Shown in pieces: positions 9,583-42,145 of a stretch of 64,000 nucleotides of DNA. The stretch is from Croceibacterium segetis (GTDB lineage: Bacteria > Pseudomonadota > Alphaproteobacteria > Sphingomonadales > Sphingomonadaceae). The stretch covers positions 124,001 through 188,000 of the forward strand of contig NZ_JAANOZ010000005.1 in the NCBI RefSeq assembly GCF_011320115.1, read 5' to 3'. Made by a program: the position numbers and the translations under genes. The notes under the pieces are model-generated. The model saw only the letters and a list, made by a program, of their open reading frames with translations, did no database searches and was not told the origin of the DNA. Numbering within the stretch: the first letter of the stretch is position 1; every line of letters begins with the position of its first letter.

Positions 9583-10828
9583 CGCCAGACCGAACGAGCG
9601 CGAGCCGCGTCCAAAGGGCTTTCCACACGGGATTCTCTACAATCTGCCTTGGATAGTGATGGGAATTACGGGCCTGGTGCTCGCGATTCAAACTTCGGTG
9701 GCCGGGGCGTTCGCGAGTAGCGGTCCAGCGATCGCCCTCAAGTTCGCACCGTTTAACGCCGGCGCGCGTGCCAAACTCGCGGAACAGATCGGTGGCTCCG
9801 AACAGGGGCAAAAAGTCGCGAATGAACTCGCGTCCGATGCCATCCGCCGTGATCCACTCCAACCGGTTGCCCTCCGGATCCTTGCACAGGGACTGGACTC
9901 CCAAACTCCCGCGTCCCAAGAGCGCGCCGCGGCACTGATGTCCGAGGCGCAACGCCTGTCTCGCCGGGACACCCTCACGCAGCTTTGGTTCATCCAGCGC
10001 AATGGCGCGCGCGGGAAAGGTGCGGCCATGATGCAGCACTTCGACATTGCGCTGCGGGCTTCGATCTCCGCTCGTCCCAACTTGTTCCCGTTCCTCGTCA
10101 CCGCATCGACAGACCCGACCGTACGGGTAGTGCTGATACGCACTCTTTCGGCGCGCCCGGGTTGGGAAAAGGCCTTTGCCACATATGCGGTTCGCGAGGG
10201 AAGGGACCTCGGACTGGCGGCTGAGCTCGCTCCGCGGCTGCTGGATGCCCGCCAACCGGACGACCGCGTCTTGTATCAGGATCTCCTTAATCGGCTCGTT
10301 CAGGCCGGGCGATACGATGTCGCATGGAACGTATATCAAGCGACAGGTGCGATGCCGAAGGATAGTCGCGCACCGTTGCGCGGCGGAAATTTCGAAGGCC
10401 CCGACGCATTTCCGCCGTTTGACTGGTGGTTCAGCGAAGAGCCGGATCTATTCGCGAGTCGGGAGCACGCCTCGGGAGGAGGACTGTTGTTGCGCGTCGC
10501 CGCGTCCGACGACCAGTCGGGTGAAGCGGCCCGGCAACTTGTCAGGCTCGCACCCGGCATCTATCAATTATCGGCAAGAATGGGGGATCTTCCGAATGAC
10601 CCGGCCGAATGGCCGACATTGCGGATTCGTTGCGCGCCGGACGACCAGCTTCGCCTCGTGAGTATTCGCCCGAGCGGCGCCGGAACGGCGGCTCGCCAGG
10701 TCAACGGTCGCTTCGAAGTCCCCGACAAATGCCATTTCCAGTGGCTCACGATCGACCTGGCGGGCGACGGTCCGCCTCAGGAGATCGCGGCGTGGGTCGA
10801 TGACATCGCCATTGTGAGGACGCATTGA
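9548..10828 (+). CDS. Membrane-anchored hypothetical protein of the polysaccharide locus
   Basis: 426 residues with one predicted span (about 33-54). A helical, repeat-like region rich in alanine and leucine follows (roughly 60-290), resembling TPR-type packing. The C-terminal domain (about 300-426) is beta-rich and starts with a GNFEGPDAFPPFDWWF segment, reminiscent of carbohydrate-binding jelly-roll folds. The ATG lies inside the tyrosine-cluster codons of the kinase gene, a 35-base overlap that suggests coupled expression. I infer a role in polymer assembly or regulation from position only. Confidence 0.7.
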   Translation: MDMASVNRTRPDARPNEREPRPKGFPHGILYNLPWIVMGITGLVLAIQTSVAGAFASSGPAIALKFAPFNAGARAKLAEQIGGSEQGQKVANELASDAIRRDPLQPVALRILAQGLDSQTPASQERAAALMSEAQRLSRRDTLTQLWFIQRNGARGKGAAMMQHFDIALRASISARPNLFPFLVTASTDPTVRVVLIRTLSARPGWEKAFATYAVREGRDLGLAAELAPRLLDARQPDDRVLYQDLLNRLVQAGRYDVAWNVYQATGAMPKDSRAPLRGGNFEGPDAFPPFDWWFSEEPDLFASREHASGGGLLLRVAASDDQSGEAARQLVRLAPGIYQLSARMGDLPNDPAEWPTLRIRCAPDDQLRLVSIRPSGAGTAARQVNGRFEVPDKCHFQWLTIDLAGDGPPQEIAAWVDDIAIVRTH

Positions 10829-10998
10829 AGGGCCGATGCGCCGGCGACGTGCAAACGGCGATCGGTTCCGCGCTGGTCAAATCAGAATTCTCCGGCCAAG
10901 ACGAGCACCATTCGGCTACCCGATCTCCTGGTTCCGGCGTCACGCGCCGTGAGGTCGTGAAGGGCGCTAAGAGATTGAGCGAACATCCGGTTTTCTAG

Positions 10999-12441
10999 AT
11001 GCGCGACATCACTATCTATGTGGCCGCACGGGCTTTCCCGGCGGCGCTTACCCTCGCCTCGTTGGCACTCCTCACGCGCTACCTGTCTCCCGCAGACTTT
11101 GGGCGCTATTCGCTCGCGATATCGTTGGCCGGCTTCGTCAATGTCGTGCTGATGTCGTGGAACCTGCAAGCGTTCTACCGCTTCCATCCGATCTACCGGG
11201 GCCGCCGTGCGGCGCTGCTCAGGAATGCCACCGTGGCTGGCTTTCTAATTTCGGCGGCGATCGGCGTTCTCGTCGTAATGCCTCTCATACCTCTCTTCGC
11301 CCGCGATTGGGGTTGGGGTTATGCATTGGCAACTGTGGCTCTTACGCCGGGGCTGGCGGGCTTGGAACTGATGAGCTATCGGCTGAACACTGCGGCGAAG
11401 CCTGTGGGGTACTTTGCGCTGCAACTCGCGCGCACCGTAGGGAACCTCGTTGCCGGCGGCCTGGTGGCCTACCTGACGAACTCGTTGGTGCTAGTGCTGC
11501 TCTCCATTGCGGGCTGGTGGTCGCTGACGGCCCTGTTCGCCGGTCTGGGCTCGTGGATCGCGCGCCTAGAGGTAGCCGCAGAGCATCGACGCATGATACG
11601 TCAGATGCTCGCATACGGTCTGCCGCTCACGGCTGCATCGGCGCTGATTTCCGCAGTCGGAACCCTCGATCGATTCATGCTTGAGGCCCTCACCAATTCG
11701 CGGACGGTTGGTGAGTTTGCGGCGGGAATGGACCTCGTTCAATTTTGCCTAGGTGCGATGGGAAGTGCGATTTCGCTGGCGGCTTATCCCGGTCTTATGG
11801 CGGCGTTTTCCCGCGACGGCGAAGAGTTGAAGCCGCGGCTCGAACGGTATTCGAGCGTTCAGATCGCAGTTATCCTCCCGCTGGCGGTTGGATTTGCTCT
11901 CGCAGCGGAGCCGCTGTCCAAGGTCTTTGTTGGGCAGGGACTGCAGCCTCAGGCGGCGGCAGTAATTCCCTGGGCGTCGGCCGCCATCTTCCTGGGCGTG
12001 CTCAAGGGGTTTTATCTCGATCTTTCGTTTCAACTGGCTCGCTGGACGGTCGGCTCCACTTTAGTGGCGGGCATCATGGTGGTTATCGTGGCCGTTCTGA
12101 ATTTCCTGCTCATTCCGCTTCGTGGCTCAGTCGGCACGGCGCAAGCCAGCTTAGGCGGCTTTGCCGTGGCGGCCGTGCTAAGTTACGTCCTGGGATCGCG
12201 CCACGCGGTGGTCATGCCGTTTTGCGTTCCAGATCTTGTAAAGTTGGCGATCGCCGGTGCAGCGATGGCGCTGGCAATGGCGTCGGTCACCGCATCCTCG
12301 CCCTTGCCCGCATTGCTCGTCAAGGGATTGGCAGGAGGAGTGGCCTACGTCGTCATCCTGATCGCCACCGACCCTTTCGAAGTGAGAAAGACTGCTCGAG
12401 TTATCTTTTCAAGGGCGGCTGCTGCAGGTCGAGATGCCTGA
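10999..12441 (+). CDS. Polysaccharide flippase (Wzx / MATE-like)
   Basis: 480 residues with about twelve to fourteen hydrophobic spans and the N-terminal pattern typical of lipopolysaccharide flippases (LLTRYLSPADFGRYSLA). It would flip the undecaprenyl-linked repeat unit across the inner membrane for periplasmic polymerisation. The 170-base gap before it shows no clear gene and may hold a promoter. Its 3' end overlaps the next gene by eight bases. Confidence 0.87.
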   Translation: MRDITIYVAARAFPAALTLASLALLTRYLSPADFGRYSLAISLAGFVNVVLMSWNLQAFYRFHPIYRGRRAALLRNATVAGFLISAAIGVLVVMPLIPLFARDWGWGYALATVALTPGLAGLELMSYRLNTAAKPVGYFALQLARTVGNLVAGGLVAYLTNSLVLVLLSIAGWWSLTALFAGLGSWIARLEVAAEHRRMIRQMLAYGLPLTAASALISAVGTLDRFMLEALTNSRTVGEFAAGMDLVQFCLGAMGSAISLAAYPGLMAAFSRDGEELKPRLERYSSVQIAVILPLAVGFALAAEPLSKVFVGQGLQPQAAAVIPWASAAIFLGVLKGFYLDLSFQLARWTVGSTLVAGIMVVIVAVLNFLLIPLRGSVGTAQASLGGFAVAAVLSYVLGSRHAVVMPFCVPDLVKLAIAGAAMALAMASVTASSPLPALLVKGLAGGVAYVVILIATDPFEVRKTARVIFSRAAAAGRDA

Positions 12442-30539: not shown

Positions 30540-31205
30540 CGGTGCATCGTCCTGCTTCATGCTTATATTTGATCGCGGCATCCACGAAGTGCAGTCCCTC
30601 CTCACACCTGACGACAAAGCAGGCAGCCTCGCCGACGTCTCCGATGTTCACGTTGCGCCGCAGCGGCGAGTTCTGCTGGTTCTGCTTGAGGATGTAGCTG
30701 AAGTCACCGATCCCGCGCGCGGCCAGGGCACGGATCGGGCCGGCCGAGATCGCGTTCACGCGGATGTTTGCGGGCCGAAGGTCGTTGGCGAGATATTTCA
30801 CGCTGGTTTCGGCGGGTTTAGCGACGCCCATCACGTTGTAATGCGGGATCACCTTTCGGCGCCGTAGTAGGCCAGCGTGAGGATCGACCCGCCGTTTGCC
30901 ATCATCGCCCGCGCCCGCTGCGCCACCGCGACCAGCGGATAGGCCGAGACGTTCATCGTCAGTAGGAAGTTATCGAGCGTGGTGTCGCAGAACTTGCCGC
31001 GCAGCTGGCTCTTGTCGGAAAAGCCGATCGCGTGAGCCACGAAATGTATCCTATCCCAGCGCCGCTTGAGGGTGTCGAATGCGGCTATGTCAGACACGTC
31101 GCAATCGAAAGTGGAGTCAGAACCGAGCTCTTCAGCCAGCGGGATCACCCCCTTGGCGAGGGCCTCCGGGCGCTCGAGCGCGAGCATCACTTCGGCCTGC
31201 AGGAT
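30540..31205 (-). pseudogene. fabI: Decayed partial copy of fabI (enoyl-ACP reductase)
   Basis: This stretch reads in two frames as most of FabI and closely matches the intact gene at 37688-38491. Preserved blocks include LGSDSTFDCDVSD, IGFSDKSQLRGKF, NNFLLTMNVSA-like DNFLLTMNVSAY, YNVMGVAK, ANIRVNAISAGPI and NSPLRRNV. Compared with the intact copy there is a one-base deletion near 30853 (CCTTTCGGC against CCTTCTCGGC) that shifts frame after YYGAE, a one-codon loss in the AKAALETS region, and divergent ends. The N-terminal Rossmann part (about 35 residues) is missing. It cannot encode a working enzyme. Confidence 0.88.
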
Positions 31206-33829: not shown

Positions 33830-35215
33830 TCAGGTGGCAAGCTGGTACTTCACGAACTGACTGAAACTGTCGACCCGATCGTCATACTTGCCTTGCGGAA
33901 ACGCTCGCAACTCGTCGCGGAAGTCATGCAGCCACGGCGCCTCGCGCGGGAGCAGGAAATGCCCTGCCTCAACTTCACCGAGGCAGCCGTTGAACCGTTC
34001 TTCCTTGCTGACCTGCGACTTCACCATGATCGGCCACGGCTTTCCGGTCGAGCGAAGGTCTTGGTAGAGCGCGTATCCGCTCCCGGCTTCTTCCATGATT
34101 ATCCTGTCTGCCCGGTAGCGCTTGTGGAGCTCGAGAACCGCGCGTTTCAGATCAGGAAAATCAAGACGCTTGCGGAAAACGTCCAGCAGATACCACTTGC
34201 GGCAGGTGCGCTCGAATCCCCACGTGGTGCAGGCCGAGTAGTCGCTGGTGGGCGCCGACGTCATGCCCGTATCCCAGCTCTGCACCACCTTGAGGAACTC
34301 GCGACGCCCGGGCGCTTCGTCATAGGTGCCCAACCAGTCGAGGCGGATCATGTTGCCCTCGGCGGTGACCGGCTTCTGCTGGTACTGGGCCGAGAACACC
34401 ACGGGGCCGAGGTCCCGTCGGAGCTGGTCGAGCGTCGCGCGGTCTTCCCGCGCAGGATTAAGGAGATCGCCGACCTTGCGAACGTGCACCCGGCCGGTAC
34501 CGATGGCCACCTCCTCTTCCTTCTCCGCGATCGCCGGCAGGTTGAGATGGCGGTAGCCCTTCTCGAGCATGTACGCCGGCAAGTCGTCTTCATGCAGGCG
34601 CTGCTGGATCGAGATGATGCGACCCGTGGCCTTGTCGTTGAGGCGGCTAAGAAGCGTGTTATCGTACCAGTTACGCACCTCTTGGCGCTGGGTCGGGCTG
34701 CGTGCCTCGTCGGCCTTCATGCAGTCGTCGACGATGATGATGTCGGCACCAAATCCCGTGATTGAACCCCCGACCGAGACCGCCTTGCGCTCGCCACCAG
34801 CGGTGGTTTCCAGTTCGAGCGCCCGGTTGCCGCGGTCACTGATCCGCGTTTTCGGAAAGTCCCTCTTGTACCAGTCGCACTCCATCAGCATCCGGGTCTG
34901 GTTCGAGTGGTAGCGGGCCAGGTCCTGGCTGTAGCTGGCGACCATGATCTTGGTCCTGGGATCATGACCGAGGGTCCATGCAACCCATGCAACCGAGGTC
35001 GTCACGGACTTCAGATGCCTCGGCGGCATCGTGACCACCAGCCGACGTTCAGCGCCGGCATGGACCTGTTCGAGCGCATGGCAGAGGGCCTTCAGGTACC
35101 AACCGAGCTCGAGCGGAGGATCACCTGAGTGGAGTGTTTCGAAGGCCTTCACCAGAAACAGGGGAAAGAATTGCCGCCGCGCCGTTGAGAGGAGGGCGGG
35201 ATCATGACGGGTCAT
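33830..35215 (-). CDS. Phage terminase large subunit
   Basis: 461 residues with both domains of a TerL motor. The ATPase has the Walker A variant MPPRHLKS (63-70), Walker B IIIVDD (159-164) and coupling-type SQDLARYH. The RNase H-like nuclease has D315 in SWDTG, E375/E376 in IMEEAGSG and D446/D449 in YDDRVDSF. All expected catalytic residues are present, so it is not obviously decayed. TerL normally cuts and pumps phage DNA into a procapsid, but no packaging partners are encoded nearby. It begins inside the end of the DUF5681 gene (four-base overlap). Confidence 0.9.
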   Translation of the reverse strand: MTRHDPALLSTARRQFFPLFLVKAFETLHSGDPPLELGWYLKALCHALEQVHAGAERRLVVTMPPRHLKSVTTSVAWVAWTLGHDPRTKIMVASYSQDLARYHSNQTRMLMECDWYKRDFPKTRISDRGNRALELETTAGGERKAVSVGGSITGFGADIIIVDDCMKADEARSPTQRQEVRNWYDNTLLSRLNDKATGRIISIQQRLHEDDLPAYMLEKGYRHLNLPAIAEKEEEVAIGTGRVHVRKVGDLLNPAREDRATLDQLRRDLGPVVFSAQYQQKPVTAEGNMIRLDWLGTYDEAPGRREFLKVVQSWDTGMTSAPTSDYSACTTWGFERTCRKWYLLDVFRKRLDFPDLKRAVLELHKRYRADRIIMEEAGSGYALYQDLRSTGKPWPIMVKSQVSKEERFNGCLGEVEAGHFLLPREAPWLHDFRDELRAFPQGKYDDRVDSFSQFVKYQLAT

Positions 35216-35739
35216 TGCCCGTCTCCCGTGCCGGTCAACTCTTCGCGCAGCGCCTGCAGGATCGCGAGGTCGGCAGCGGTGAGATCCTCTTCGGGCGCGT
35301 TGGCCGCACCTTCGAGTTCGTTCGTCTCAGGGACAGCGTTCTTCCAGAGCTTGATCAGCTCCAACTGCGCACGCGGATTGCCCTTCATCGCCTGTTCGAG
35401 GGTTTTCTGCAGGACGGCTTCGATCCGGCTGATCCGCTTCGTGCCCTCACCGGTGCGGACAGCGATCTTGCCGCCAAGCGTCTCGCGGACTAGCGTGTTT
35501 AGGCCCTTGGCCTTCCTGGGCCGACCCTTCGAGTTGCCAGACTGGCCTGGCCTGAACCGGGTGTGTTTGGGCGGCTTCTTGTAGCCGACCTCGTAATCTC
35601 GCTGGTCGAGACGTGCCGGCTCATCAGCTTGTTGATCAACCGGCTCTGCTGCTGGGGCCGAACGGGTACGGACGCGCACGCGGGGCGGGGGAGGGTTGTG
35701 GTTGGACGATGGGTCTGGGGTGATGGGAACGATAGGCAT
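35212..35739 (-). CDS. DUF5681 domain protein (possible small terminase-like partner)
   Basis: 175 residues. After a proline- and arginine-rich lead comes YKKPPKHTRFRPGQSGNSKG (about 53-72), the DUF5681 hallmark, then a helical segment with KTLEQAMKGNPRAQLELIKL. DUF5681 proteins are regularly found just upstream of terminase genes, which suggests a DNA-recognition partner, but I know of no proven function. It is translationally coupled to the terminase. Confidence 0.85.
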   Translation of the reverse strand: MPIVPITPDPSSNHNPPPPRVRVRTRSAPAAEPVDQQADEPARLDQRDYEVGYKKPPKHTRFRPGQSGNSKGRPRKAKGLNTLVRETLGGKIAVRTGEGTKRISRIEAVLQKTLEQAMKGNPRAQLELIKLWKNAVPETNELEGAANAPEEDLTAADLAILQALREELTGTGDGQ

Positions 35740-35861
35740 CAGAAGTCTCCTGGAATCTGGATGTGAGGGGGAGGTCCCGCACGCCGATCTGACATGCCGA
35801 AGCCCTGTCCTCAGAGGTCGGTGGCGAGGGGCTCGATCGAAGCAGGCGTCTTGCCGCTTCC

Positions 35862-37229
35862 TTACGCTGCGGAGCGCTCGTCGGCGATTTCAGCAAACGT
35901 CTGGCCGGTCCTCTCGAGCACGGTCTGTTCGCCGCTCATGGCTTCCCATCGGCGGATCGCCACGTCGACGTATCCGGGCGCGATCTCGATCCCGAACCCG
36001 CGCCGCTTCGTTCGCTCTGCGGCAAGGATGGTCGTGCCGGATCCCATGAAAGCATCGAGCACGATCTCGCCGGGCCGCGTCACGTCGCGGATGGCGTCGG
36101 CCACCAGCGCGACCGGCTTGACTGTCGGGTGATCGGTCAGGTCAGCCATGCGGCTCTTCCCGAAGGTGTTCACACCGGCATAGTCCCAGACGTTCGTGCG
36201 GTAGCGACCGTGCTTGCCCAGCTCGACGTTGTTGGTGTGTGGCGCTTTGCCCGTCTTGGCGATGAAGACCAGTTCGTGCTTCGAGCGGTAGAGCGAACCC
36301 ATGCCTCCGTTGGTCCCGTTCCACACGCACAAGTTGAGCAGCGACAGGTCATTGACTTCGATCGCCGCCAAGAGCTCGCCCATGTGACGCCAGTCCATGC
36401 ACAGATCGAGCATGGCGCCATCCTTGAGATGCGGCAGCATCCTCGCGGTGAAATCAGTGAGAAAGCGCGTGAACTCATCCTTGGTCATCTTGTCCGAGGC
36501 CACCGCGAACTCGGCGTGGCTCGCCTTGCCTACGCCGCAGACGCGGTCAGACACTTGGACGTCGTAGCGGGGGTTGGAGAAGGCCATTGCGGCAATCTCG
36601 CCCGCCATAAGCGCGACCCACGCCGCGGCATCGAGGCTGGAGCCACAAAGCAACCGATGGTGTCCTAACACCCATAGGTCGCCCGCCCGGCTGACCGGCT
36701 CGGCCGGAAGTTCGAGTTGCTCGTCTGCCGGGTCGACCGAATTCCCGTCACAGCCCGCACCGCCGATGATCGGATCGATCTCGCCGGTTTCCCAGCCCAA
36801 GATTTCGATGGGAGTCTCATCGATGTCGATGATGGCAGCGAATTCAATCGCCAGCGCACCGGCATCCCACTTCGACAGCCCGGCGAGCCTGTTGTCGGCG
36901 AGCCGGTAGGCGCGCACCTGGGCGGAGCTCCAGTGGTGCGCCACGATCACCGGCACTTCGACAAGGCCAGCGCGTTTGGCTGCGGCAATTCGAGCCTCGC
37001 CGGCAATGATCGTGCTATCCTCGTCAACCAGCACCGGCATCGCGAACCCGAACTCCCTGATCGAGGCGGCGAGCTTCGCGAGCTGTTCGTCGGGATGCTT
37101 GCGCGGATTGTTCTTGTAGTCGCTCAGGGAACTGATCGGTCGGTATTCGATCGGACCGAGGCGCTGGTCGAGCGCGGTGAGTTCATTGGGAAGTGCAAGT
37201 GTCTTCCGGGCAGTCTGGGAGTAAGTCAT
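35862..37229 (-). CDS. DNA methyltransferase with N-terminal ParB/Srx domain, catalytic motif altered
   Basis: 455 residues. Residues 25-115 are a ParB-like nuclease/Srx domain (NNPRKHPDEQLAKLAASI, then AGEARIAAAKRAG at 76-88). Residues 185-430 are an N6/N4 amino-methyltransferase of the beta arrangement, with HPTVKP (367-372) and the SAM motif DAFMGSGTT (392-400). The catalytic motif expected as (D/N)PPY reads NPRY at 219-222; the arginine codon is CGC at 36567-36569 on the complement, one base from a proline codon. The enzyme may be impaired. It heads the orphan terminase cassette. Confidence 0.88.
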   Translation of the reverse strand: MTYSQTARKTLALPNELTALDQRLGPIEYRPISSLSDYKNNPRKHPDEQLAKLAASIREFGFAMPVLVDEDSTIIAGEARIAAAKRAGLVEVPVIVAHHWSSAQVRAYRLADNRLAGLSKWDAGALAIEFAAIIDIDETPIEILGWETGEIDPIIGGAGCDGNSVDPADEQLELPAEPVSRAGDLWVLGHHRLLCGSSLDAAAWVALMAGEIAAMAFSNPRYDVQVSDRVCGVGKASHAEFAVASDKMTKDEFTRFLTDFTARMLPHLKDGAMLDLCMDWRHMGELLAAIEVNDLSLLNLCVWNGTNGGMGSLYRSKHELVFIAKTGKAPHTNNVELGKHGRYRTNVWDYAGVNTFGKSRMADLTDHPTVKPVALVADAIRDVTRPGEIVLDAFMGSGTTILAAERTKRRGFGIEIAPGYVDVAIRRWEAMSGEQTVLERTGQTFAEIADERSAA

Positions 37230-37687
37230 TCCTGATATCCTTCTTGCTTCGTCAGCAAGGAGGGCGGGGCAGAGTTATGCAGCACACAAGCAGACAACTA
37301 CCATCCCGCCCGCAATTGCGTGGCGATTTGATAAAATTGCCCTGTCGCTGCTTGCTTTCGCGGGATTGCGCGGTGCACTCTGCCTTAGGACGATGCATAT
37401 CTTTGGCACACGTGGGCCGTTCGTCAAGTGGGAGGCCGGTGAGAATTGTCTTCGGTGCTACCGAGGGTTAGATTGCTTTGAGCGGAAAAATCCCTGCCGG
37501 TTTCCTGAATCTTCCTTGTTCCAATGCTAGGGAATTCGTTCGCAGGAACGACGGAATCCGGTAGTTCTCAGGCTCGCTCGAGACCGCGATAGCGTGCGAT
37601 TTGGCGATTTTTCCCTGTAACTTCCCGTGTATCAAGGAATTAGGCCGTGCTTCGATGGCAAGGCCGCGCGCCTGGTCGATTAGCCTC
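37230..37687. other. Non-coding stretch between methyltransferase and fabI
   Basis: 458 bases with no supported gene. It should carry the promoter of the cassette, near 37240-37330, and contains a pair of TTCCCTG-type repeat arms described separately. The plus frame through 37601 is a shadow of fabI. Confidence 0.6.
37491..37641. repeat. Two related TCCCTG...AGGAATT arms
   Basis: Arm one (37491-37536) starts TCCCTGCCGGTTTCCTG and ends CTAGGGAATT. Arm two (37611-37641) starts TTCCCTGTAACTTCCCGTG and ends CAAGGAATT. Both have two CCCTG-like blocks followed by an AGGGAATT-like block in the same order, about 75 bases apart. Confidence 0.4.
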
Positions 37688-38491
37688 TCACACCAGCGCG
37701 ATATCCGGCGCGTCTTCTTGCTTCATGCCGATGACGTTGTAGCCCCCGTCCACGAAGTGGACCTCGCCGGTAACCCCCGACGCAAGGTCCGAGAGCATGT
37801 ACAGCCCCGCGCCGCCGACGTCCTCGATGGTGACGTTGCGGCGCAGCGGCGAGTTCAGCTGGTTCCACTTAAGGATGTAGTTGAAATCGCCGATCCCGCG
37901 CGCCGCCAGCGTCTGGATCGGACCGGCCGAGATCGCGTTGACGCGGATGTTCTCCGGCCCGAGGTCGTTGGCGAGGTAGCGCACGCTGGTCTCGAGCGCC
38001 GCCTTGGCCACGCCCATCACGTTGTAGTGCGGCACGACCTTCTCGGCGCCGTAGTAGGTAAGCGTGAGGATCGACCCGCCGTTTGGCATCATCGCGCGGG
38101 CCCGCTGCGCGACCGCGACCAGCGAGTAGGCCGAGACGTTCATCGTCAGCAGGAAGTTGTCGAGCGTAGTGTCGTAGAACTTGCCGCGCAGCTGGCTCTT
38201 GTCGGAAAACCCGATCGCGTGAACCACGAAATCGAGCGTGTTCCAGCGCTGTTTCAGGGTTTCGAACGCGGCGTCGAGGGAGGCCATGTCGGAGACGTCG
38301 CAATCGAAGGTGAAGTCCGAGCCGAGTTCCGCGGCGAGTGGGACCACGCGTTTGGCGAGCGCTTCGCCCTGGTAGGAGAAGGCCATTTCCGCGCCGTGCT
38401 CGCGCAGCTTCTGGGCGATGCCCCAGGCGAGCGACTTGTCGTTGGCGAGGCCCATGATCAACCCGCGCTTGCCGTCCATCAGCCCGGTCAT
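37688..38491 (-). CDS. fabI: Enoyl-[acyl-carrier-protein] reductase (NADH)
   Basis: 267 residues, standard FabI length. The nucleotide site GLANDKSLAWGIAQKL (14-29), and the catalytic Y146, Y156 and K163 fall at the same positions as in the E. coli enzyme (YYGAEKVVPHYNVMGVAK). It reduces enoyl-ACP in each round of fatty-acid elongation. The start ATG overlaps the stop of the BrkB-type gene by four bases. A decayed partial copy lies about 7.1 kb to the left in the same orientation. Confidence 0.95.
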   Translation of the reverse strand: MTGLMDGKRGLIMGLANDKSLAWGIAQKLREHGAEMAFSYQGEALAKRVVPLAAELGSDFTFDCDVSDMASLDAAFETLKQRWNTLDFVVHAIGFSDKSQLRGKFYDTTLDNFLLTMNVSAYSLVAVAQRARAMMPNGGSILTLTYYGAEKVVPHYNVMGVAKAALETSVRYLANDLGPENIRVNAISAGPIQTLAARGIGDFNYILKWNQLNSPLRRNVTIEDVGGAGLYMLSDLASGVTGEVHFVDGGYNVIGMKQEDAPDIALV

Positions 38492-39528
38492 TCGGTACCT
38501 TCCTCCCGTTGCTTCTCGTCAACTTGCGCCGCGCGGACGCGATTGTCGGCCTGGCCGATCAGGTCCTGCTCTTCTTCGGGCGTCTCGGCCAGCGCCGCGT
38601 TGAGTTCGGCGCCCATAACCATCCCCAGGCCGACGAGCCAGAAAAAGAATAACGCGATCATGATCCCGGCGAGCGAGCCGTAAGTGAGGTTGTAGCTGAA
38701 CACGCTGCGCAGCAGCGGCGGCAGCGCCAGCGCGACGAGGATCCACCAGAGAGTGACCAGCAGCGCGCCGGGCCATTTGGGATAGCGCGGCCGGCGATAG
38801 GCGAACGGCGTCAGCGTATAGAACAGCAGGTAAAGCGAGCCGTACAGGCCGAACGCCGGCACCACGCGCGACAGCGCGAGCGAGCCGAGCAAGTCGCCGA
38901 GCTGCGGGAAGTAGGCATCGATTACTTCCTGCGCGGCGCCGATCACGACTTGCGCGATCAGGCTCAGCATCAGCATGACCACCGCGGCGATGATGATACC
39001 GGTGGAGAACAAGCGATACTTCCAGAACGCCGAGGTCGGCTCGGTGCCGTAGGCGCGGCGCAGAACGTCGCGGATCGTCTCGATCAGGCTGCCGACGGTC
39101 CACAGCCCGACCAGGCCGCCGATCCACAGCAGCCACCCGGTGCGCTGCTGGATCACCGTGCGCGCTACCGGGCCGATCACGTCGCCGACGACCGGCGGGA
39201 GCGCGTAGAGGATCGCGTTGATCGATGCCGCGCGTTGGCTCTGCTCGCCGATCACCGAGAAGATCGCCGCGCCGGTGATGAAGAACGGGAAGATCGCCAG
39301 CACCGCCATGTAGGCGAGGTTGCCGGCATGGATGAAGCCGTCGTTGTAGGTGCCGACGAGAACCCGCTTGACGACGCAGAACACGCGCGATCCGGGGCCG
39401 ACGGTCTCGCGCATCTGTTCCTGGAAGCCCGCCCGGTGGAGCAGGGCGGCCTTGCGGCGTCCCTCGGGCGACAGGTCCTCGACCGGCGGGCCGTGCTTGT
39501 CGATGTCGGGAAGGCCGTGGAGCTCCAT
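38488..39528 (-). CDS. YihY/BrkB family inner-membrane protein
   Basis: 346 residues with six or so hydrophobic spans. The family pattern includes NAGNLAYM-like IHAGNLAYMAVLAIFPF, the WILVALALPPLLR segment, and FSYNLTYGSLAGIMIALFFFW followed by GAELNA. The N- and C-terminal tails are charged and cytoplasmic. The biochemical role of YihY/BrkB proteins is not settled. Coupling with fabI by a four-base overlap suggests one transcript. Confidence 0.87.
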   Translation of the reverse strand: MELHGLPDIDKHGPPVEDLSPEGRRKAALLHRAGFQEQMRETVGPGSRVFCVVKRVLVGTYNDGFIHAGNLAYMAVLAIFPFFITGAAIFSVIGEQSQRAASINAILYALPPVVGDVIGPVARTVIQQRTGWLLWIGGLVGLWTVGSLIETIRDVLRRAYGTEPTSAFWKYRLFSTGIIIAAVVMLMLSLIAQVVIGAAQEVIDAYFPQLGDLLGSLALSRVVPAFGLYGSLYLLFYTLTPFAYRRPRYPKWPGALLVTLWWILVALALPPLLRSVFSYNLTYGSLAGIMIALFFFWLVGLGMVMGAELNAALAETPEEEQDLIGQADNRVRAAQVDEKQREEGTE

Positions 39529-39590
39529 CGTTCCGGCTTATGGACAGCAGGGCGCGGGCTGTCGAGTTGGGGTGCGGAGCGCCCGCCGGG

Positions 39591-40526
39591 TCAAACGCCG
39601 AGCTTCGCGCGCACGTTCCGGGTATCGCGCCAGCCGTCGAGCTTGCCGGCGAGCTCGGTCACGTCTTCAGGCAGCTCGATCTCGAGGGCGACGAGCTGGT
39701 CGCCGCGGCCGCCGCCCTTGCGGGTGAAGCCCTTGCCCTTGAGGCGCAAGACTTTGCCCGAGCCCGAGCCCGGCGCGACCGTGAGCATCACCGCGCCGTC
39801 GACCGTCGGGACCTTGACCTTGGCGCCCTGGACCGCCTCGTCGAGCGTGATCGGCAGCTCGAGCCGCACGTCGTCGCCGTCCCGGCGGAAGAAAGGATGC
39901 GGCTCGATCATGATCGTCACCAGCGCGTCACCGTTGCCGGCCGGGCCGGGCTCGCCTTTGCCGGAGAGGCGCATCTGCGTGCCGTCCTCGACTCCGGCGG
40001 GCAGCTTGAGGTCGAGCGTCTTGCCGTCGCCGAGCGTGATCCGCTGCGGCTTGAGCCCGGCGGCGTCGGCGAACGGCACGCGCAGCCGGTACTGGACGTT
40101 GGCGCCCTTGCGCGGCGGCGGGCGACGGCCGCCGCCCATTCCGCCCGGCGCGCCGGTGCGGCCGCCGAACAATCCTTCGAAGATGTCGCCGATATCGAGC
40201 CCCTCGGCGCCGCTGAAGCCCTCGAAGTCCTGCGCCGAGAAACCGCGCGCGCCGCCGGCGCCCGGGCGAAACCCGCCGCCGCCCATGCCGAAGGGCATCG
40301 CCGGGTTGCCGTCGGCGTCGATCTCGCCGCGGTCGAACTTCGCCCGCTTGTCGGCGTCGGACAGCAGGTCATAGGCCTTGGTGACGTCGGAGAAGCGCTC
40401 CGCCGCTTTGGGGTTGTCGGTGTTGCGGTCGGGGTGCAGCTCCTTGGCGAGCTTGCGGTAGGCGGACTTGATGTCCTTCTCGCTCGCACCGCGCGCCACG
40501 CCCAAGGTTGCATAAGGATCGGCCAT
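39591..40526 (-). CDS. DnaJ family co-chaperone without zinc finger (CbpA-like)
   Basis: 311 residues. N-terminal J domain with the HPD motif at 31-33 (KELHPDRN), a Gly/Phe-rich linker (about 80-135, GMGGGGFRPGAGG), and two C-terminal substrate-binding domains ending in a dimerisation region. The four CxxCxGxG repeats of DnaJ are absent, so this is the CbpA class. It stimulates DnaK. The divergent gap of 78 bases to pdxH should hold promoters for both. Confidence 0.92.
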   Translation of the reverse strand: MADPYATLGVARGASEKDIKSAYRKLAKELHPDRNTDNPKAAERFSDVTKAYDLLSDADKRAKFDRGEIDADGNPAMPFGMGGGGFRPGAGGARGFSAQDFEGFSGAEGLDIGDIFEGLFGGRTGAPGGMGGGRRPPPRKGANVQYRLRVPFADAAGLKPQRITLGDGKTLDLKLPAGVEDGTQMRLSGKGEPGPAGNGDALVTIMIEPHPFFRRDGDDVRLELPITLDEAVQGAKVKVPTVDGAVMLTVAPGSGSGKVLRLKGKGFTRKGGGRGDQLVALEIELPEDVTELAGKLDGWRDTRNVRAKLGV

Positions 40527-40604
40527 GGCGTGTTAGCTAAGTGTAACAGTGCGTCCGTGCAAGCAGCGCTTTCCTCGATCGTTCACCGAGTCTAGGGCTG
40601 CGGC

Positions 40605-41207
40605 ATGCAGGCTGAACAAGACGCCATCCCGCACGACGACCCGCTGGCGCTGTTCGAGGCGTGGTTCGCCGAGGCGCGGGGGAGCGAGCCGAACGACGCC
40701 AATGCGATGGCGCTCGCTACCGCGACGGCGGACGGCCGCCCCTCGGTGAGAATGGTGCTGCTCAAGGGGCACGGGCCCGACGGCTTCGTGTTCTACACCA
40801 ACGCGGAAAGCCGCAAGGGGCAGGAGATCGCCGAAAACCCGCACGCCGCGCTGCTGTTCCACTGGAAGAGCCTGCGCCGGCAGGTGCGGGTCGAGGGCTC
40901 GCTCAGCGAAGTGACCCCGGCAGAGGCCGACGCCTATTTCCACTCGCGCCCGCGGGTGTCCCAGCTCGGCTCCGCCGCCTCCGACCAGTCGCGCCCGCTC
41001 GATTCGCGGCAGACCTACCTCAACCGGGTCGAGCAGCTTGCCGTGGAATACGTCGACCAGGACATCCCGCGCCCGCCCCACTGGACCGGCTTCCGCCTTT
41101 CCCCCGCGACCATCGAGTTCTGGCTCGACCGTCCCAACCGCCTCCACGAACGCCGCCGCTTCGTCCGCGATGGCGAGCGCTGGAGCAGCGCGCTGCTTTA
41201 CCCATGA
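40605..41207 (+). CDS. pdxH: Pyridoxamine 5'-phosphate oxidase
   Basis: 200 residues, typical length. FMN-binding and active-site segments are RPSVRMVLLKG, FYTNAESRKGQEI and the C-terminal FWLDRPNRLHERRRF with conserved arginines and histidine. It makes pyridoxal 5'-phosphate in the last step of vitamin B6 synthesis and salvage. The stop overlaps the start of the next gene by four bases. Confidence 0.95.
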   Translation: MQAEQDAIPHDDPLALFEAWFAEARGSEPNDANAMALATATADGRPSVRMVLLKGHGPDGFVFYTNAESRKGQEIAENPHAALLFHWKSLRRQVRVEGSLSEVTPAEADAYFHSRPRVSQLGSAASDQSRPLDSRQTYLNRVEQLAVEYVDQDIPRPPHWTGFRLSPATIEFWLDRPNRLHERRRFVRDGERWSSALLYP

Positions 41208-42145
41208 CCGACGACCCGCAGGCACGCGCCCGGCTCACCCGCAGCGCCGCGCTGGCCTCGATCACGATGGCGCTGCTGCTCCTCGGCATGAAGGTGTGGG
41301 CCGTGCTGCAGACCGATTCGACCGCCATGCTCGGCAGTCTCGCCGACACCGCGCTCGACCTCGTCGCCAGCGTGGCCACGCTGATCGGCGTGTGGATCGC
41401 CGCTCAGCCGGCCGACCGCGAGCATCGTTTCGGCCACGGCAAGGCCGAGGCGCTGGCGGCGATGTTCCAGGTGGTGCTCATTTCCCTTTCCGCGTTCGGC
41501 CTCGCTTTTCGAGCGATCGAGCAGCTGCTCGGTGGGCACCGTGTGGCAGGTGCGAGCGAAGGCATTCTCGTGTCGCTGATCGCAATCGCCGGAACATTCG
41601 TGCTGCTCTGGTGGCAGCGGCAAGTGATCCGCCGGACCGGAAGCCTCGCGATCAAGACCGACAACGTGCATTACAAGTCGGACCTGTTCCTCAACCTCGG
41701 TGTCATCGCTGCGCTCGCGCTCGACCACTACTTGGGCATTGGCGGCGCCGACCCGCTGTTTGGCCTTGCCATTGCCCTGTGGCTCGCCTGGGGCGGTTGG
41801 CGTGCTTCCAGTGAGGCGCTCGATCACCTGATGGACAAGGAATGGCCGGCCGAAAAGCGCGAGCAATTTCTAGCGGTGCTGGCCAAGCATCCCGAACTCA
41901 AGGGTGTCCACGACTTGCGCACCCGGACGAGCGGCGCGCACGATTTCGTCCAGTTTCACGCGATGGTGAAGGGCGACATGACCGTCGCCGAAGCGCACCG
42001 AGTTATGGACGAGCTCGAGGAACGCATCGAGGGTGAGTTTCCGGGAGTGGAGGTGCTGATTCACCCCGACCCCGAAGGGCTCTTAAACGAGACCGGCGCC
42101 GCTGCCGAAGAGCTGCTTCCCGGTTTGGTTGAGGAGCCAAGGTGA
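41204..42145 (+). CDS. Cation diffusion facilitator (FieF/CzcD family)
   Basis: 313 residues from the ATG at 41204, chosen for the overlap with pdxH. Six membrane spans and a cytoplasmic C-terminal domain. The transport-site residues D48, D52, H156 and D160 are spaced exactly as in E. coli FieF (four residues within each pair, 108 between them). It should export zinc or iron in exchange for protons. It is followed by the phzF-like gene with a four-base overlap. Confidence 0.9.
   Translation: MTDDPQARARLTRSAALASITMALLLLGMKVWAVLQTDSTAMLGSLADTALDLVASVATLIGVWIAAQPADREHRFGHGKAEALAAMFQVVLISLSAFGLAFRAIEQLLGGHRVAGASEGILVSLIAIAGTFVLLWWQRQVIRRTGSLAIKTDNVHYKSDLFLNLGVIAALALDHYLGIGGADPLFGLAIALWLAWGGWRASSEALDHLMDKEWPAEKREQFLAVLAKHPELKGVHDLRTRTSGAHDFVQFHAMVKGDMTVAEAHRVMDELEERIEGEFPGVEVLIHPDPEGLLNETGAAAEELLPGLVEEPR

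Follow-up and report, generated by a model that had tools for sequence, protein, structure and literature searches.

The 64,000-nucleotide window of Croceibacterium segetis analysed here (contig NZ_JAANOZ010000005.1, positions 124,001 to 188,000) contains a block of three minus-strand genes encoding a large terminase (TerL), a DUF5681 protein and a fusion of a ParB_N domain with an N6/N4 DNA methyltransferase (MT). We found that this trio recurs as one end of a larger mobile element. The explanation that we favour, and hold to be reasonably likely, is that the trio forms one conserved end of a family of genomic islands integrating at tRNA genes, that DUF5681 and TerL package the island DNA into helper capsids, and that the window copy is a stranded remnant. 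The full unit has two modules. MT-DUF5681-TerL occupies one end or a position close to it, and a large serine recombinase (LSR), in many cases together with DUF2924 and DUF3489, stands at the opposite end or next to the trio. The bacterial-type cargo separating them ranges from next to nothing, in a unit of ~6.6 kb, to tens of kilobases, and no virion genes were detected. The original prediction, made from the sequence alone, had described a lone minus-strand block without phage genes around it, and the open reading frames (ORFs), Pfam and PHROGs agree with this description. It had missed that motif IV of the methylase is altered here and that the block belongs to a larger element, whose recombinase module and full terminus are missing from the window copy.

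The recurrence of the trio was assessed in 126 loci, defined as stretches of at most 20 kb around 40 family TerL matches, 4 source-genome loci, 80 genome-scan loci (nearly all Alphaproteobacteria by record title) and 2 annotated records. ORFs were obtained with a simple home-made caller and their clusters were named partly from Pfam and partly from sequence. TerL, MT and DUF5681 clusters were present in 118, 110 and 89 loci, respectively, the last two counts being lower bounds because antisense ORFs sometimes displaced these genes. The frequent partners of the trio were the LSR (42 loci), DUF3489 (24), DUF2924 (22) and small XRE regulators (20), each remaining cluster being restricted to 12 loci or fewer. 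The LSR-tRNA and head-gene counts leave out six loci that duplicate or nearly duplicate others (L099, L101, L111, L134, L143 and L156); four Ruegeria loci lie at one site and are not independent. Within the window's family, 53 of 298 genomes, in 36 of 96 genera, contain TerL relatives, a count that takes in fragments and one or more phage-like cases; DUF5681 was found in 43 of 398 genomes of the phylum. Rfam models applied to 7 loci returned one tRNA and nothing else.

Whether the trio recurs without other phage genes was among the checks proposed by the original prediction, and the outcome is in its favour: the trio recurs across Alphaproteobacteria without detected virion genes, with one outlier (L084). 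Head-gene queries comprised profiles of portal and other head genes from the nearest phage contigs, together with individual portal, connector, protease and capsid proteins. They matched none of 119 element loci, 9 large islands and 40 loci sampled through DUF5681, with the limit that, given this origin of the profiles, unrelated head families could be missed. As a control, 48 of 62 phage contigs were matched; this control is partly circular, the profiles being built largely from the same 62 contigs, and the independent CRP-901 connector query matches 43 of the 62 by itself. The outlier L084, excluded from the 119 loci and used as control locus, is phage-like: its TerL is 31% identical and one of its ORFs matches a minor head protein. 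The 105 ORFs scanned, out of 115 listed downstream of TerL, include a single match to GTA_TIM and a single match to a tail-protein family. Of the 19 best IMG/VR contigs, 18 hold MT, DUF5681, DUF2924 or the LSR (14 the LSR), the exception (L213) having a portal-type gene. GenBank record MT839917.1 (L097), a 5.4-kb human faecal "Bacteriophage sp.", contains LSR, DUF2924, MT, DUF5681 and TerL; since this low-GC scaffold is an element fragment, the family may reach beyond Proteobacteria. Finally, a search of 50,697 phage records with the window DUF5681 matched 3 at E <= 0.01, including an element fragment; more distant phage DUF5681 proteins would escape this query.

The terminases of these elements form essentially one lineage. 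In a midpoint-rooted FastTree phylogeny of 208 TerLs (seven duplicate-type loci dropped), in which the element label was assigned by the genes in each locus and by hand for the window, one clade unites 134 of 136 element TerLs and 5 unlabelled rows, and a second one holds 45 of 50 phage TerLs and 15 unlabelled rows. The element and phage labels need 3 changes on this tree, or 8 if unlabelled rows are counted as non-element. Selection on the terminase had also been supposed by the original prediction, and codon comparisons indicate that TerL is under purifying selection, with pairwise dN/dS of 0.035-0.144. Pairs including the window TerL give 0.058-0.116 with one pair past saturation, dS being saturated or nearly so in all of them. 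The window TerL branch (dN ~0.074, computed by hand) is no longer than that of C. salegens (~0.081). Pairwise dN/dS was ~0.07-0.19 for MT and 0.11-0.53 for DUF5681. TerL was thus found neither nested among phage TerLs nor under relaxed selection, as would be expected of a prophage or its remnant. In an alignment of 14 TerLs, whose members are 39-79% identical to that of the window, the residues named by the original prediction (P65, R66, K69, S70, D163, D164, D315, E375 and D449) are invariant, as is D446; the claim that every expected residue is kept stands for TerL and falls for the methylase, whose motif IV is broken.

The LSR combines Resolvase and Recombinase domains and has the DUF2924 and DUF3489 proteins as partners. 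The usual Rhodobacterales-type order is tRNA-Ser, then LSR-DUF2924-DUF3489 directed leftwards, then MT-DUF5681-TerL directed rightwards. In L281, L282 and L286, co-directional MT-DUF5681-TerL genes are followed by the LSR and tRNA-Ser, L281 and L282 coming from two genomes outside the class. We counted 54 LSR copies of at least 450 aa, some of which may not belong to trio elements; 50 have at least 500 nt past the stop codon. A complete tRNA faces the LSR stop with its 3' end at 160-394 nt in 25 of these 50 copies, and a tRNA in the opposite orientation lies beyond the LSR stop in none of the 50. An integrase beside a tRNA, as expected of a site-specific island, is therefore found in the family and not in the window copy. 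Homology of the L053 left flank to four congeners extends as far as the CCA of the tRNA, or two bases past it in one of them, and ends there. A pair of Ruegeria elements diverges ~143 nt past TerL, which gives the unit of ~6.6 kb, counted from the tRNA. Integration by the LSR at tRNA 3' ends is supported by position, and not by an empty site. We also observed, within ~60 nt after TerL, a tRNA-Met-like 3' half in L110, L112, L114, L125, L126, L130, L135 and L138. It begins near the anticodon loop and resembles an attachment-site remnant; the other end of these loci, where seen, is a tRNA-Ser (complete in L130, partial in L114).

Larger islands were delimited by searching 12 genomes with the LSR of the source genome. 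Nine of them have an LSR 12-60 kb downstream of TerL and co-oriented with it; that of G049 contains an in-frame stop. Eight of these nine also show a facing tRNA (Ser, Thr or Leu) past the LSR, at a distance above 2 kb in two cases. The span between the trio end and the tRNA, measured by hand, amounts to ~32-40 kb for five islands and ~66 kb for two, and one island stays below 20 kb. The intervening cargo is ordinary and bacterial-type, visible families including curli, cytochrome bd oxidase, sulphate permease, glycosyl hydrolases, methylases and restriction genes. This description relies on 130 ORFs of at least 170 aa, located within a single fetched stretch, from eight of the nine islands (G077 omitted); it covers the 117 ORFs that were scanned and on the 25 commonest of 107, 69 and 74 families. 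No relaxase appeared among the 25 commonest of the 107 Pfam families in these 117 ORFs, no search having been aimed at relaxases. Early comparisons had pointed to a unit ending just past TerL. Because the LSR lies further downstream in nine of the 12 genomes, the apparent right ends there are more likely the starts of variable cargo, and a 6,038-bp trio-end block that is 98.8% identical in two species with unrelated flanks is not taken as a whole element; no counterpart to the left flank of one copy of this block turned up in the 44 other genomes of its genus. The position of the LSR likewise led us to reject the view that the trio is a separate 4-kb transposon bounded by terminal inverted repeats.

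At the trio end there is a conserved terminus, and the bases at its outer edge are a repeat of the 3' end of the target tRNA. Direct repeats of 6-8 bp with the tRNA end were found in 7 islands, namely TGGCGGAG with tRNA-Ser in 2 and TGGTGC with tRNA-Thr or tRNA-Leu in 5; CCA being common to all tRNA ends, only what follows TGG carries information. Just inside the terminus, many loci show iterated TTCCCTG / CAGGGAA / ACAGGGAA sequences (e.g. L051 6923-6955 in element orientation, and the window remnant listed in Table 1), which are a candidate binding or packaging site.

According to the explanation that we favour, the LSR would integrate and excise the island at the tRNA. DUF5681, acting as a small terminase, would recognise island DNA with TerL, and both would package it into procapsids of a co-resident phage or gene transfer agent (GTA), the ParB-methylase marking or protecting the DNA. 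TerL is the procapsid motor in well-known cases, and a packaging motor without detected shell genes suggests travel inside the shells of other viruses; as no shell genes were seen, a helper would be needed. In Leptospira phage LE3, a DUF5681 homologue occupies the small-terminase position, overlapping TerL upstream, and a portal gene follows shortly after. In Salmonella phage STGO-35-1, a DUF5681-annotated protein was detected in virions; with the genome written from TerL onwards, the gene for this protein comes close to the end (PMC8954984).

Several observations weigh against this reading, some concerning integration and others packaging. The other 25 of the 50 LSR copies have no complete tRNA within 500 nt, and three of the 12 searched genomes (G000, G002 and G051) have no co-linear LSR, that of G002 being on another contig. 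In L053, L059, L077, L078, L103, L104, L108 and L144 it is the MT end, and not the LSR end, that abuts tRNA-Ser, which places these loci outside the simple island scheme. None of the tRNA-Ser empty sites sought in the four L053 congeners is clean, the right flanks being unrelated, and no clean one was found in Ruegeria, where the only full-length match turned out to be L163's own genome. For 3 of the 5 Thr/Leu islands, chance repeats in the same stretches are at least as long as the 6-bp repeat, and terminal direct repeats indicating a circular form were found in none of 20 contigs. As regards packaging, the DUF5681 model has no match at E <= 0.001 among solved structures; a fold search against BFVD gave two at this threshold, the better being a DUF5681 protein of Leptospira phage LE4 and the other unnamed. 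Islands of ~66 kb exceed the capacity of many phage heads. Moreover, the 40 loci sampled through DUF5681 (fetched from 69 listed matches; two repeat L141 and L159, and 7 have no called DUF5681 ORF) contain 34 DUF5681, 30 MT and only 13 TerL ORFs. Five DUF5681 genes were counted in the source genome, along with four MT-DUF5681 cassettes on contigs C38, C42, C18 and C4; TerL is present in two of these cassettes and missing from those on C4 and C18. Given so many DUF5681-MT pairs without TerL nearby, DUF5681 may not be just a small terminase.

Among the alternatives, the one that survives best is that the TerL motor has a non-virion role in the island life cycle, in which it would cut DNA or translocate it during excision, replication, transfer or integration. 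The conservation of both ATPase and nuclease residues, the failure to detect portal or head genes and the awkwardness of packaging ~66 kb all fit this role; integration is already explained by the LSR, terminases are otherwise known to act on procapsids, and the LSR-bearing MT-DUF5681 element on C4 of the same genome does without TerL. We consider this role unlikely, yet worth keeping in mind. The same TerL-less cassettes on C4 and C18, with many of the sampled loci, would suit a second possibility, in which the methylase and DUF5681 are a ParB-like pair marking or maintaining the island DNA and TerL is an optional passenger. This appears improbable, as TerL, where present, directly follows and often overlaps DUF5681 over a wide evolutionary distance and is strongly constrained. 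Decayed phages that left behind their recombinase- and terminase-bearing parts would account for the phage homologues of all three genes and for a window copy with no recombinase and a damaged methylase. We give such prophage remnants little credence in view of the common gene order in most of the 126 loci without detected virion genes, the single main TerL lineage and the scarcity of window-type DUF5681 in phage records, distant DUF5681 proteins being beyond reach of that search. Finally, a module in which terminase and methylase act against incoming phage DNA or its packaging recalls the restriction and methylation genes of some cargo and is very improbable, since PADLOC has no family for TerL or DUF5681, MT matches 53 PADLOC families of which the 25 listed are all methyltransferases, and the LSR and tRNA architecture points to mobility. 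Of the three roles first envisaged for the trio (satellite, defence module or DNA-mobilising unit), the DNA-mobilising or satellite-like ones are thus favoured and defence is left without support from PADLOC.

The features of the window copy are collected in Table 1. PHROGs assignments of the trio (phrog_38 TerL, 2e-108; phrog_26239; phrog_498) agree with Pfam. The trio is flanked by fabI (37688-38491) and an exopolysaccharide-type gene region, flank gene names being mostly a reading of the translations, and a tRNA search of the window found none. The window methylase has S-N-P-R-Y in motif IV in place of the T-D-P/A-P-Y of seven compared relatives; by regular expression, D-x-P-Y is missing only from the window among 81 homologue motifs, no motif having been read in 25 further proteins. 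Judging from this substitution, the enzyme is probably catalytically dead. The terminus retains its inner part only, the outer part seen in relatives being absent. A search with the LSR of the source genome found no LSR on the window's 266-kb contig, strong matches lying elsewhere in this genome, on C42, C4, C40 and C15. The window copy is therefore not a complete unit, and is probably a stranded, immobile island end beside fabI in which the TerL gene is intact.

Table 1. Features of the trio and its terminus in the window (positions from the first nucleotide of the 64,000-nt window).
Feature	Position	Strand	Basis
TerL (large terminase, ATPase and RNase H-like nuclease), intact	33830..35215	minus	ORF list, Pfam Terminase_6C/6N, PHROGs, alignment
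DUF5681 protein, candidate small terminase by gene position	35212..35739	minus	Pfam DUF5681; 4-nt overlap with TerL
ParB_N and N6/N4 DNA methyltransferase fusion (MT)	35862..37229	minus	Pfam ParB_N and N6_N4_Mtase
Methylase motif IV SNPRY, residues 218-222, for (T)DPPY	36564..36578	minus	coordinates hand-counted from translation
Trio-end terminus remnant (AATTCC..ACGGGAAGTTACAGGGAAAA), 46 nt from fabI stop	37609..37641	minus	coordinates hand-converted

Some further observations concern the surroundings of the window copy and its relatives in the same genome. A fabI pseudogene fragment at 30630-31166, 82% identical to the intact gene, adjoins a C-terminal fragment of UDP-glucose dehydrogenase; the idea that the fabI fragments are attachment-site duplications was rejected, the fragment being a diverged copy in pseudogene state. 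In two congeners, the sequence after fabI reads (without search) as the end of a sugar dehydrogenase. On C18 (L015), a 311-aa protein without Pfam match (10348-11283) replaces TerL after MT-DUF5681. On C4 (L016, ~36900-42000), an MT-DUF5681-DUF5681 element lies at tRNA-Ser, and immediately past it are a repeat array and Cas2-, Cas1- and Cas9-like ORFs, named from their translations.

No description of this gene combination was found in the open-access literature, and the island type, a widespread one, is apparently undescribed. The closest kinds are phage satellites and tRNA-targeted islands. Like phage-inducible chromosomal islands (PICI) and related satellites, the islands probably integrate site-specifically, and they have no complete virion, packaging-type genes and a likely helper dependence, helper packaging being a defining feature of satellites. 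They differ from PICI-type satellites by carrying their own TerL with no detected capsid or portal, by an LSR instead of a tyrosine integrase and, for some, by a size of 32-66 kb with bacterial-type cargo. The cf-PICI subset also encodes its own packaging enzymes, but with capsid genes, none of which were detected here. Tycheposons of Prochlorococcus are likewise tRNA-targeted with variable cargo and have been linked to transfer in phage capsids, but have a different recombinase class and different hosts. GTAs share the alphaproteobacterial setting and a phage-derived packaging machinery, but encode capsid and tail genes, whereas no capsid genes were detected in the islands. SCCmec elements (ccr) are LSR-borne mobile islands with cargo as well, and CcrB gives the best NCBIfam score for the LSR of L114, far below the cut-off (131.7 against 900 bits); the present islands differ in their tRNA target, terminase module and DUF2924/DUF3489 genes. 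In phage WO of Wolbachia, the recombinase lies immediately downstream of a DUF2924 gene, and terminase, portal and baseplate genes are described as well (PMC10299305), whereas no virion genes were detected in the islands.

TerL genes without virion genes are easily mistaken for phage debris, and virus collections contain contigs of this element. If these loci belong to a single, widespread family of islands that target tRNAs, a substantial pathway by which genes move among Alphaproteobacteria has been filed under the wrong heading, and the role of a packaging motor without a capsid becomes a question in its own right. More tentatively, and with less confidence than in the island family itself, we raise the possibility of a hitherto undescribed class of mobile islands with a packaging motor and no shell. 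In such a class, the trio would mark island DNA (perhaps with adjoining chromosomal DNA) and drive it into the capsids of co-resident phages or GTAs, the iterated ACAGGGAA-type sequence at the trio end would be the packaging or DUF5681/ParB recognition site, and up to ~66 kb of bacterial genes might be moved in this way across Alphaproteobacteria.

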